Shown: positions 11,883 through 62,746 of the stretch, one piece after another
Layout: each line of letters opens with the position of its first letter
Position numbering within the stretch: position 1 is the stretch's first letter
Program-made: the position numbers and the translations under genes
The notes under the pieces: generated by a model
Told to the model about the DNA's origin: nothing
Databases searched by the model: none
Seen by the model: only the letters and a program-made list of their open reading frames with translations
From: Clostridiales bacterium Firm_14
GTDB lineage: Bacteria; Bacillota; Clostridia; Saccharofermentanales; Saccharofermentanaceae
Reading direction: 5' to 3'
NCBI GenBank assembly: GCA_001604135.1
Contig: LVAT01000005.1
Span: forward strand, 62,001 to 126,000
Length of the DNA stretch: 64,000 bases

Positions 11883-12497
11883 ATGGATAACAAAGAAAGA
11901 ATGATCGCGAATCTTCCTTATAAGTCCTGGATGGACGGACTAAACGAAGAGCGCATGGAATGCAAGAAGAAGCTTTACGAATATAACAATATGCCGCCTG
12001 AAAAGCAGGCTGAAAGAGAAAAGCTCCTTCGTGAGATCTTGGGAAAGACAAAGGAAGGCTATCTCTGCATCGAATCGCCTTTCCACTGTGACTACGGCTA
12101 TAACATCGAAGTCGGAACGGACTTTTTCGCAAACTACAACTTCATAGTCTTAGACTGCGGCAAGGTCAGGATCGGCGACCACTTCATGTGCGGCCCCAAT
12201 GTCCAGATCTGCACCGCAGGACACCCGATCCATTGGGATTCCAGAAATTCCGGATACGAGTACGGAATCGACGTAACGATCGGCGAGAATGTCTGGATCG
12301 GCGGAAACGTTCTGGTATGCCCCGGCGTCACGATCGGCAACAATGTCGTCATTGGCGGCGGCAGCGTAGTTACCAAGGATATCCCTGAGAACATGATCGC
12401 GTACGGCAATCCCTGCCGTCCCGTAAGAGAGATCACCGAAGCAGACAGGGACTTCTACTTCAAGGACAGAAGATTCGACGTCGACGACTATAAGTAA
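11883..12497 (+). CDS. Maltose/galactoside O-acetyltransferase family protein
   Basis: A 204-residue acetyl-CoA-dependent sugar O-acetyltransferase of the LacA/Maa left-handed beta-helix family. The N-terminal Mac domain (DGLNEERMECKKKLYEYNN) is followed by hexapeptide repeats, the catalytic His in QICTAGHPIHWDSR, and the closing block GGGSVVTKDIPENMIAYGNP with CRPVREI. Length matches the family. Such enzymes acetylate maltose, glucose or galactosides, possibly to detoxify sugars that cannot be metabolised. It starts one base after the GH2 stop, recalling the lacZ-lacA association. Because the GH2 partner appears inactive, the pair may serve glycan modification rather than lactose use. The hairpin array begins 8 bases downstream. 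Confidence 0.92.
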   Translation: MDNKERMIANLPYKSWMDGLNEERMECKKKLYEYNNMPPEKQAEREKLLREILGKTKEGYLCIESPFHCDYGYNIEVGTDFFANYNFIVLDCGKVRIGDHFMCGPNVQICTAGHPIHWDSRNSGYEYGIDVTIGENVWIGGNVLVCPGVTIGNNVVIGGGSVVTKDIPENMIAYGNPCRPVREITEADRDFYFKDRRFDVDDYK

Positions 12498-12504
12498 TTT
12501 TGTG

Positions 12505-12549
12505 AATACCTACCTCGAGCGTGGAAATGACGACTGGGTAGGTATTTTT
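12505..12549 (+). terminator. First array hairpin, likely terminator of the GH2-acetyltransferase operon
   Basis: The 11-bp stem (one G-T pair) ends in GGTATTTTT and lies 8 bases after the acetyltransferase stop. Its 20-base loop is longer than in most terminators. Confidence 0.6.
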
Positions 12550-12906
12550 GAAGTCCAATTGTTCACCTAAGTGACTAAATACCTACCTGGAGCGTAAAAA
12601 CGGCGTCAAGGTAGGTATTATTTATGCTCGTTTGTTGAACTTGCTATTGCTGAACACCTATTTGGAGCCCGAAAACGTGTCCTAAGTAGGTGTTTTCGAG
12701 TTTTTCCTATTAATCAAGGAAAGCAAGATACCTACCTGACGTGCAAAAATGAAGTTCAAGTAGGTGTTTTGGCTTTCTATTGAGATTGCGAAATGCGAAA
12801 AGCTTACTAAAAGCCCTTAAAAGAGTCTTCAAGTGGGCTTTCTGCACCTGCGACACCAATAAAAAGCACACTTGGGTGCGTAAATAGCTGCTCTAAGTGG
12901 GCTTTT
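12505..12906 (+). repeat. Tandem array of six related hairpins (~74-bp period)
   Basis: Six stem-loops lie in a row. Units: 1, arms 12505-12515/12536-12546; 2, 12578-12588/12609-12619; 3, 12653-12663/12684-12694; 4, 12727-12737/12758-12768; 5, 12809-12816/12835-12841; 6, 12862-12873/12895-12906. Units 1-4 have the arm AATACCTACCT or variants with AGGTAGGTATT, an 11-bp stem and a loop of exactly 20 bases with a GAGCGT-like start and an AAAA centre. Arms covary: AATACC/GGTATT in units 1-2 becomes AACACC/GGTGTT in unit 3, and units 5-6 use GCCC or GCAC with AAGTGGGCTTT. Right arms are followed by T-rich sequence. Linkers of 31-33 bases are not conserved. This is a structured repeat, not a CRISPR array. 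Its role is unknown; terminator or small-RNA functions are possible. Confidence 0.85.
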
Positions 12907-13018: not shown

Positions 13019-14215
13019 ATGAATAAATGGACCAGAGCGGCCATACCGGCTTTGTTGATTCACTGTTCTATCGGTACGGTCTATTGTTGGAGCACGTTCA
13101 AGCAATCTATCGCTGAAGCCATTGGCATGACTCCTTTTGCCGTAGGCTGGGCATTCAGCTTCGCGATCTTCTTCCTCGGTATGTCAGCAGCTTTTGCCGG
13201 AAAGATCGTTGAGCAGAACATCCACAGATCTTCATTGATCTCTGCCATCTGCTTTACGGCAGGCATGCTTGGCACAGGTGCTGCAATCAAGTTCTTCCAG
13301 GGAACTTTGGCGCTGATCCTTATCTACATCTTCTACGGATGCATAATGGGTATCGGTCTTGGCATCGGTTACTTAACGCCTGTTAAGACGCTGATGCTCT
13401 GGTTTAAGGATAATAAAGGCCTTGCTACGGGTATCTCGATCATGGGATTCGGCCTTGCAAAGGCCATTGCTACGCCGATAATGGAGTTCCTCCAGAATAA
13501 GTTCGGCATAGCTCCGATGTTCTTTATCCTGGGCTGTGTATATTTTGTAATGATGTTTGCAGGTCACCTTCTTCTTAAGAAACCTGAGGGCTGGGTCGAG
13601 GATAAGGCCGTCAACAACAGCTTTAAGGCTACATCGATGTTTAAGGACAAGACCTTTATCGGCATATGGCTCATTTTCTATATCAACATTCACTGCGGTC
13701 TCATGCTCATCACATATGAGAAGCAGCTTCTTAACGAGAAGTTCGCGGGCCTTGCGATCCTTGCAACCATCGTAGCCGTCGTTCCTTCGATCACTGCAGT
13801 TTGCAATGCTCTGGGACGTATCGGATATTCGACCGTCTCAGACAAGATGAAGGACAGGGCAACCGTTTACGGGATCATATTCCTCTCATGCGTACTGCTC
13901 TGTTGTCTTTCTGCTGTTATCGGCAACGGCTGGGTCATCATTATCCTTCTCATGGTAATCAACTTAGGCTACGGCGGCGGTTTCTCGACATTGCCCGCGC
14001 TCCTTGAATCCAGATTCGGAATGAAGAATATCTCGAAGATCCACGGCCTGTCTTTGTCAGCGTGGGCTGTTGCCGGAATCACGGGCAACAACCTCTCTGA
14101 GATCATCCTCTCCAATACGAACAACAACTATACGGTCATCATAATCACCGCCATGATCCTCTACGCTGTTGCAGGCGTTATCTACTTCACGATGGTAAAG
14201 GCGAAGAAGGCCTGA
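13019..14215 (+). CDS. MFS transporter of the oxalate/formate antiporter (OFA) type
   Basis: A 398-residue membrane transporter with twelve hydrophobic segments. The N-terminus (IHCSIGTVYCWSTFKQSI) and the loop GIGLGIGYLTPVKTLMLWF match the OFA subfamily, whose members exchange organic acids such as oxalate, formate or pyruvate across the plasma membrane. AGGGAGG at 13005-13011 lies 7 bases before ATG 13019, which decides the start over an upstream in-frame ATG at 12980. A TGGTACACT extended -10 (12981-12989) may be its promoter. The NAD(P)HX epimerase gene follows one base after the stop. The substrate cannot be assigned from sequence. Confidence 0.88.
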   Translation: MNKWTRAAIPALLIHCSIGTVYCWSTFKQSIAEAIGMTPFAVGWAFSFAIFFLGMSAAFAGKIVEQNIHRSSLISAICFTAGMLGTGAAIKFFQGTLALILIYIFYGCIMGIGLGIGYLTPVKTLMLWFKDNKGLATGISIMGFGLAKAIATPIMEFLQNKFGIAPMFFILGCVYFVMMFAGHLLLKKPEGWVEDKAVNNSFKATSMFKDKTFIGIWLIFYINIHCGLMLITYEKQLLNEKFAGLAILATIVAVVPSITAVCNALGRIGYSTVSDKMKDRATVYGIIFLSCVLLCCLSAVIGNGWVIIILLMVINLGYGGGFSTLPALLESRFGMKNISKIHGLSLSAWAVAGITGNNLSEIILSNTNNNYTVIIITAMILYAVAGVIYFTMVKAKKA

Positions 14216-61711: not shown

Positions 61712-62746
61712 ATGGAAAAGAAGAATCTCGATTGGTCAAATTTGACCTTCTCTTATCAGAAGACAGATAAGAGATTCGTAGCTAACTACACGAACGGCGC
61801 ATGGGACGAAGGTGCGCTCATCGATGACGACATGATCGTCATGAGCGAAGACGCTGGCGTTCTCCAGTATGCTCAGACAGTTTTCGAAGGCCTTAAGGCT
61901 TATGAGACAGTAGACGGCAGGATCGTTACTTTCCGTCCTGACCTCAACGCTGAAAGACTTCATGACTCTGCAGTCCGCCTCGAGATTCCCCCGATTTCCA
62001 AGGAATTATTCCTCAGATCAGTCCAGGAGACAGTTGCAGGCAACGCAGCTTGGGTTCCTCCGTATGGTTCCGGCGCATCACTCTACCTGAGACCTTATAT
62101 CTTCGGTATTAACCCCGTTATCGGTGTTAAGCCTGCTGATGACTATCAGTACAGAATCTTCGCTACACCTGTAGGCCCTTACTTCAAGGGCGGCGCTAAG
62201 CCGATCGCAGTTAAGATCTCTGACTTTGACCGTGCTGCTCCGAGAGGAACAGGCAACATCAAGGCAGGTCTCAACTATGCTATGTCTCTCCACGCAATCG
62301 TTACAGCACACAAGGAAGGATTTGCTGAGAACATCTATCTCGATCCTGCTACACGTACAAAGATCGAGGAGACAGGCGGAGCTAACATCATCCTCACAGA
62401 CGGTCAGGGCACACTCGTTGTACCTAAGTCCGATTCCATCCTGCCTTCAATCACAAGAAGATCGCTTGTTTACGTTGCTGAGCATTACTGCGGCATGAAG
62501 ATCGAGGAGAGGGAAGTATACCTCGACGAGATCATGAGCGGTAAGTTCACAGAGGGCGGTCTCTGCGGTACAGCTGCAGTTATCTCACCTCTCGGCTCCA
62601 TCAATGATCACGGCAAGGAGTTCAAGTTCGCTTCCGGCATGGAGGAGATGGGTCCTGTCATGACAAAGCTCAGAGAAACACTCACAGGCATCCAGATGGG
62701 TACTGTTGAAGCACCTGAGGGCTGGATCATGGAGATCAAAGTCTGA
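61712..62746 (+). CDS. ilvE: Branched-chain amino acid aminotransferase
   Basis: A 344-residue PLP enzyme for the last step of leucine, isoleucine and valine synthesis. Marks: VFEGLKAYETVDGRIVTFRP, LYLRPYIFGINPVIGV, the PLP lysine in GNIKAGLNYAMSLHA, IEETGGANIILTDG and GLCGTAAVISPLGSI. Length and motifs match class IV aminotransferases of the IlvE/BCAT2 type (about 340). AAAGGA lies about 8 bases before the ATG. It works in the same pathway as leuCDB 11 kb upstream. Codon use is notably uniform, suggesting high expression. Confidence 0.96.
   Translation: MEKKNLDWSNLTFSYQKTDKRFVANYTNGAWDEGALIDDDMIVMSEDAGVLQYAQTVFEGLKAYETVDGRIVTFRPDLNAERLHDSAVRLEIPPISKELFLRSVQETVAGNAAWVPPYGSGASLYLRPYIFGINPVIGVKPADDYQYRIFATPVGPYFKGGAKPIAVKISDFDRAAPRGTGNIKAGLNYAMSLHAIVTAHKEGFAENIYLDPATRTKIEETGGANIILTDGQGTLVVPKSDSILPSITRRSLVYVAEHYCGMKIEEREVYLDEIMSGKFTEGGLCGTAAVISPLGSINDHGKEFKFASGMEEMGPVMTKLRETLTGIQMGTVEAPEGWIMEIKV

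Follow-up and report, generated by a model that had tools for sequence, protein, structure and literature searches.

The palindrome array in the window

The window analysed here, a stretch of 64,000 nucleotides, corresponds to positions 62001–126000 of contig C5 in the 3.12-Mb, 45-contig genome of Clostridiales bacterium Firm_14 (G000 in the following). Between the genes for a hexapeptide sugar O-acetyltransferase and an MFS transporter it harbors a tandem array of six palindromic units (Table 1), which an earlier note on this DNA had described from the letters alone, naming the latter gene an OFA transporter; its product matches MFS_1. The array is real: its six dyads of 42–43 nt occupy positions 12505–12905, and the first begins 7 nt after the O-acetyltransferase stop codon. 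Units 1–4 had been correctly read as hairpins with an 11-bp stem and a 20-nt loop, 42 nt each, separated by linkers with little likeness to one another; units 1 and 2, taken with their linker, are 73% identical over 64 nt, chiefly within the arms. The proposed period of about 74 bp holds for the first four dyad spacings (73, 75, 74 and 72.5 bp), whereas the last one is 64 bp. Units 5 and 6, whose arms had been described as GCCC or GCAC paired with GGGC, need correction: they belong to the same family as units 1–4, are 43 nt long and carry the GCCCAC arm type. As for the loops, their GAGCGT-like start is only local, but the A-rich centre is a central A-tract that is conserved more widely.

Table 1. 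Units of the window array and their flanking genes (window positions), and sites of the linked gene (genome:contig). Scores are those of covariance model R1 or of the Pfam match.
Feature	Position	Strand	Description	Score
Unit 1	12505..12546	+	ACCTAC arm type; A-rich centre on + strand	41.3 bits (R1)
Unit 2	12578..12619	+	ACCTAC arm type	51.3 bits (R1)
Unit 3	12653..12694	+	ACCTAT/GTAGGT arms	48.6 bits (R1)
Unit 4	12727..12768	+	ACCTAC arm type	42.6 bits (R1)
Unit 5	12799..12841	+	degenerate GCCCAC arm type (GCTTAC/GTGGGC); poor fold alone	28.4 bits (R1)
Unit 6	12863..12905	+	GCCCAC arm type (GCACAC/GTGGGC)	42.9 bits (R1)
Hexapeptide sugar O-acetyltransferase gene	11883..12497	+	upstream neighbour, outside the system	
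MFS transporter gene	13019..14215	+	downstream neighbour, outside the system	MFS_1, E 4.8e-23
Linked gene, Clostridia	G000:C7, G042:C27, G042:C31, G046:C65, G080:C11, G086:C17, G093:C1, G099:C13			
Linked gene, Treponema	G188:C86, G194:C12, G283:C13			

Distribution and unit anatomy

Short DNA palindromes related to the window hairpins occur as a family in gut Clostridia and some Treponema. While an initial pattern search performed no better than the reversed control, two covariance models, R1 built from 14 units of three loci and R2 from 51 units, revealed the homologous arrays in related genomes that the earlier note had proposed to look for. In G000, R1 detects 36 distinct units at E<=1, to which R2 adds two on C9 and one at C10:70271, giving at least 39; 34 of these 39 are organized in eight arrays of 2–7 units, four form two pairs with a distance of 180–182 bp, and one lies at a contig end. 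Within the genus, 48 of 85 genomes yield R2 matches at E<=0.01, with up to 73 per genome; with both strands counted, G086 has 119 matches and G042 has 111. At the order level, 38 of 188 genomes match at E<=1e-4, and the same family accounts for 37 of these, in five genera; at the class level, it is 7 of 391 at E<=1e-5, three from the same genus and four with single places. A draw from the Treponema genus (that of a MAG titled uncultured Treponema) yielded matches in 11 of 118 genomes at E<=1e-4, one of them on a 3.43-Mb contig and therefore not stray Clostridia DNA. The named matches are rumen ‘Ruminococcaceae’, ‘Clostridia’ and Treponema MAGs.

Many arrays are found at contig ends (G000:C12; G009:C18 and C25; G086:C9 and C22; G042:C13, C22 and C28; G100:C21; G082:C91); assemblies therefore probably break there, and copy numbers are underestimated. 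Pattern matching further returned 21 stretches, eight of them from a single Acidobacteria MAG, RA.bin134 (L051, L053, L054, L056, L057, L062, L068 and L069). Among the 14 stretches that were inspected, three from this MAG contain an interspersed nested palindrome starting with GGGTCAAACCTAC, probably an unrelated REP-type repeat, and were set aside together with two Bacteroidetes matches. In viral sequences, a strict pattern gave no match and two looser patterns gave one and three single matches, with no array.

Over the whole family, a unit spans about 36 bp and has dyad symmetry. On its A-rich strand, the consensus consists of ACCTACTAAAA, free bases, five A residues at the dyad, free bases and TTTTAGTAGGT; G046 and G142 have only a weak A-tract at the centre. 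The arms come in several types (ACCTAC, GCCCAC, ACCCAC, ACGTAC, ACTTAC, ACATAC and ACCTAT), which are grouped in blocks within an array, and the two arms of a unit match in 119 of 139 model-chosen units, compared with 31 expected. Some arrays are adjoined by other palindromes: a second family, ATACCGTATCAA...TTGGTACGGTAT, in G046 (L148:1966, L152:1689–1792 and L149 after 2190), and a further tandem palindrome, TTACCACACAGA...TCGTGTGGTAA, in G142 (L140:1863–2092).

Helical phasing of the dyads

In both phyla, the dyads are set at whole helical turns. Stronger matches listed from 14 Clostridia genomes provided 199 neighbour distances of 40–400 bp, among which the main classes are 53, 64, 74, 148 and 180 bp and the rarer ones 84, 105, 117, 128, 138 and 222 bp. 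For the spacings of 45–300 bp, at least 198 in number, the best period is 10.56 bp with a phase near 0 (R 0.84), corresponding to the DNA helical repeat. Collapsing pairs by the likeness of their linkers, with a cut-off that also merges unrelated linkers, reduced 140 pairs to 45 and gave a best period of 10.50 bp (R 0.78); without the 71–77 bp class, the remaining 31 spacings have an R of 0.69, against a 99.9% null of 0.575. Likewise, 11 genomes of the Treponema genus provided 32 spacings with a best period of 10.56 bp (R 0.89, null 0.587), and R is 0.82 versus a null of 0.73 for the 19 spacings outside the 71–77 bp class; two of these genomes, G206 and G267, have one orthologous array in common.

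Off-phase spacings exist as well, namely 70 and 187 bp and abutting pairs at 39 bp, two of which fell below the 40-bp floor of the spacing set. Sorted by core length, the commonest spacing is 74 bp for cores of 34 bp (6/6, gap 40), 73 bp for 35 bp (21/25, gap 38), 74 bp for 36 bp (33/70, with 64 bp in 23; gap 38) and 74 bp for 37 bp (2/2, gap 37); the length that is kept constant may be either the dyad distance or the gap. Neighbouring units have the same orientation in 82 cases and the opposite one in 27.

Genomic placement and turnover

Placed by simple ORF calls, one of 40 arrays overlaps an ORF. Of the 34 that could be classed, 20 lie between co-directional, 12 between convergent and 2 between divergent genes (p 0.013 for convergent versus divergent). 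The neighbours are ordinary and varied, apart from 9 of 30 scanned proteins that have no Pfam family. Some arrays are recent duplications; near-identical linkers occur in L111, L148 and L149, and comparison of orthologous arrays between G086 and G042 shows that 70 bp were cleanly gained or lost, the break points being in the arms.

A recurrent arrangement is the 180-bp pair, seen 14 times and measured in 11 cases, some of them orthologous, with dyads 179–182 bp apart. All 11 measured pairs have a CsoR-like dyad 50–51 bp outside the first palindrome, as well as a TATACCCC motif 29.5–32 bp before the second, and one pair precedes genes for CsoR and a copper ATPase (csoR-copA). A composite of about 250 bp (L097–L101, L105–L109 and L058) consists of the CsoR-like dyad and a palindrome, followed by about 138 bp with little conservation, a TATACCCCC motif and the second palindrome; the arms of its two palindromes tend to vary jointly within a locus. 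The gap before a TetR-like gene (L098, L099, L108, L115 and L044), judged orthologous from the flanking ORFs, is occupied differently from genome to genome: G000, G042 and G083 have a 180-bp pair there, G082 an array of four units with 74-bp spacing, and G007 a single unit.

Folding and paired changes

None of 100 shuffles folds as well as the array stretch of the window (z −6.66), and five of the six units also fold well singly (z −2.83 to −5.01; unit 5, −0.13). The earlier claim that stem bases change in pairs, preserving symmetry while the sequence drifts, is supported by 28 double-change cells in 14 units (12.7 ± 3.3 in shuffles) and 105 in 51 units (41.4 ± 4.6); none of 500 shuffles, which ignore the relatedness of the units, reached either count.

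The same note had left the choice between a structured RNA and a protein-binding hairpin. An RNA hairpin under selection is expected to carry more G-T than A-C mismatches on the RNA strand. In 166 units, recorded with a detector symmetric for both kinds, we found 82 G-T and 76 A-C mismatches, and therefore no RNA-strand signature; in a plain record-strand frame, the same detector gave 89 versus 69 (p 0.13). At positions 4–9, model-chosen units have 11 G-T and one A-C, with a pairing model that favours G-T, and the symmetric detector counts 16 versus 13. As controls, 14 T-tailed hairpins in array loci have 11 G-T versus 2 A-C (p 0.02) and 37 E. coli hairpins 18 versus 10 (p 0.18), both small samples, while control hairpins without T tails have equal numbers. 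Furthermore, RNA function does not require dyads to lie whole DNA turns apart, which leaves the RNA reading unsupported. The note was right to name binding by a protein as one option, whereas the small-RNA or sponge locus that it considered possible is not supported and was rejected, given the mismatch counts against those of the T-tailed hairpins and the whole-turn phasing.

In an Rfam scan of the window, tRNAs alone pass; over the array, the sole match is mir-556 (E 0.64), in agreement with the note's statement that no named family has this form. Plain terminators were rejected as well. No whole unit passes an intrinsic terminator scan of the window; another scan gives two sites in total (1.1 in shuffles), including a 5-pair minus-strand site inside unit 6. 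A hairpin that passes the former scan is contained in 4 of 29 arrays, and 10 of the 29 have a separate canonical terminator nearby.

A gene family directly downstream of arrays

When 46 array-neighbour proteins were compared with each other, four unnamed ones, including one from Treponema, proved to form a single family with 35–56% identity. A profile of six members (A5), searched over 245 sequences, found this family at 11 distinct sites in 10 genomes of two phyla (Table 1). The loci had been chosen for holding arrays, and the linkage count refers to such array loci. At all 11 sites, the array lies directly upstream of the gene, with 8–109 nt between its near edge and the first Met, an interval that often includes a ribosome site. 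The copy in the genome of the window is located outside the window; there, the array edge is 76 nt away by the strict palindrome scan alone, and the model match ends at 8 nt. The linked sites make up 11 of the 72 array loci taken in 13 genomes, and no copy is found beside the arrays taken from G206, G267, G210, G098, G100 and G082. A relative without an array or palindromes is encoded on a 4.2-kb phage-labelled scaffold (MT839528.1, L184). No viral relative was confirmed, and, with no array in the viral pattern searches, we rejected phage-borne arrays. A weak profile match (22 bits) at L091:690–1628 in G079 lies beside a single palindrome.

The linked protein is a stand-alone protein of 264–288 aa with a PD-(D/E)XK-like C-terminus. 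Ten aligned array-linked proteins keep E165, PD195–196 and E211–H212 (L030 numbering), and together with the MT839528.1 relative they keep VRSKSE, PDF and EH blocks. The protein is a candidate member of the PD-(D/E)XK nuclease superfamily, for which a conserved E, PD and (D/E)xK are typical: an E, a PD and a later E are present in 11 of 11 aligned sequences, and EHxG stands at the position of ExK, with the K replaced. The only strong match to a known protein is that of the C-terminus to PADLOC PDC-S68, seen in four of four proteins (E 7.5e-24 to 8.2e-25). Two of the four also match PADLOC HEAT_CxxC_PDDEXK (E 0.0023 and 4.3e-4), and there is no Pfam, NCBIfam or PDB match of note. Matches on plasmids fall in large helicases or ATPases, of which they cover the C-terminal part.

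Comparing the arm type before the gene with that of the other arrays taken from the same genome hints that each protein may have its own arm type, which would also explain why the two arms of a unit match. In G046, G080, G093 and G188, the linked arm type is the commonest among the other arrays, and in G042, where two paralogues stand behind ACCTACTA and ACTTACTG arrays, both types are frequent elsewhere. By contrast, the linked type is a minority in G086 and differs from the other arrays in G194 and G283. For G099 there is no further array to set against the linked one, and the linked GCCCAC array of G000 was missed by the arm-type detector. Duplication within a genome could mimic such a match between arm type and gene.

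Comparison with known systems

In outline, the system resembles the REP/BIME elements with their RAYT enzymes: in both, small extragenic palindromes occur in clusters and in many copies (G000 has at least 39 units), and repeats adjoin a single enzyme gene. One end of a REP is described as bearing a GTAG or CGTC tag that stays unpaired (PMC3733652), whereas the array units have no such tag; their GTAG forms part of the paired arm, and other arm types do not retain it. BIMEs are described as regularly spaced with alternating orientation (PMC2817692); the array units are regular too, but prevail in the same orientation. Nor is the linked enzyme a Y1 transposase, as RAYTs are. A search for RAYT (Y1_Tnp) found none in seven of nine array-bearing genomes, including G000, one in G046 and two short partial matches in G086, and one each in two of seven array-poor genomes; RAYT-driven REPs were rejected on these grounds. 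Finally, 33 REPs from six 50-kb stretches of E. coli (300 kb) gave 15 spacings, 14 between opposite orientations, which unlike the arrays are not helically phased (R 0.17 at 10.5 bp; at the best other period, 8.06 bp, R is 0.74, slightly above the 95% null of 0.71). As three tested REP features fail, we do not file the system under REP.

Other likenesses are more limited. The candidate defence protein PDC-S68 matches the C-terminal 100–130 residues of the linked protein with its own C-terminal end, but its models exceed 1200 residues, and the linked protein has no helicase part. In size, with repeats of about 42 nt and spacers of about 32 nt, the arrays resemble CRISPR, yet their repeats are degenerate, and CRISPR was rejected, with Cas1 found in none of 10 genomes. 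Long-spacer dimer operators such as the BirA and PurR boxes have two arms about three turns apart. The array units share this geometry and differ in sequence and in being set in long arrays. Literature searches returned no description of such phased palindrome arrays or of PDC-S68.

Discussion

The position of some arrays directly before a gene for a nuclease-like protein suggests a two-part DNA repeat system that had gone unrecognized. We consider it rather probable that the window array is a member of such a system, in which a protein would bind the palindrome as a dimer and form phased assemblies. One part would be the palindromes, in dispersed intergenic arrays with dyads whole helical turns apart, and the other the 264–288 aa protein encoded directly downstream of one array. 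This protein would bind the palindrome, most likely as a dimer, with its own upstream array as one target, and neighbouring complexes five, six, seven or more turns apart would align on one face of the helix and could interact. By analogy with REP/RAYT, it may also have spread or amplified the arrays. The sequences directly show the repeat family, its phasing in two phyla, the missing RNA-strand bias and the linkage of gene and array at 11 sites. Besides binding, dimerization and cooperation, we infer a putative nuclease activity and a possible role in spread, defence or chromosome structure. More tentatively, this might be a new class of self-linked repeat systems, in which every paralogue of the PD-(D/E)XK-like protein has a palindrome type of its own and polymerizes on phased arrays dispersed over the genome. 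Such proteins would have been transferred between Clostridia and Treponema and could constitute a chromatin-like organizer, a defence system or a domesticated mobile element.

Alternatively, the arrays could be docking platforms for another nucleoid or topology protein, with the linked gene standing behind some of them by chance. The helical phasing would agree with this, as would the unrelated neighbours of most arrays and the avoidance of divergent promoters (2 of 34 classed arrays). That one gene family should directly follow arrays at 11 sites in two phyla is, however, hard to ascribe to chance, and we regard the docking-platform explanation as unlikely. We give somewhat less credence still to the view that the repeats are purely selfish or neutral, that the linked enzyme or another recombinase has spread them, and that their phasing stems from the mode of insertion or duplication, with no role for the host. 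A patchy presence (48 of 85 genomes of the genus), the occurrence in two phyla, tandem duplicates and the 70-bp unit gain or loss between orthologous arrays would all be typical of such repeats, but phase is held between units with unrelated linkers, and neither pattern nor protein searches of viral sequences revealed a viral carrier.

It is very improbable that the units act as RNA hairpins, be it as mRNA stabilizers, terminators or small RNAs: the strong folds, the paired changes and the location of arrays shortly after stop codons (7 nt in the window) are countered by the 10.56-bp phasing, the lack of a clear G-T excess and the terminators found separately from the arrays. Just as improbable are operators of a gene regulator, perhaps together with CsoR, since most arrays lie between unrelated, often convergent genes, even though the CsoR-like dyad of the 180-bp pairs, the pair before csoR-copA and a possible autoregulation of the linked gene by the arrays before it would point that way.

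Intergenic palindromic repeats are mostly without a known partner or function. For the proposed two-part system, arrays and a candidate partner are both identified: in two phyla the helical repeat can be read off the array spacing, and the linked protein family is undescribed in the curated libraries searched. With both identified, experiments can directly address binding, arm-type specificity and any part played in chromosome structure, defence or mobility.
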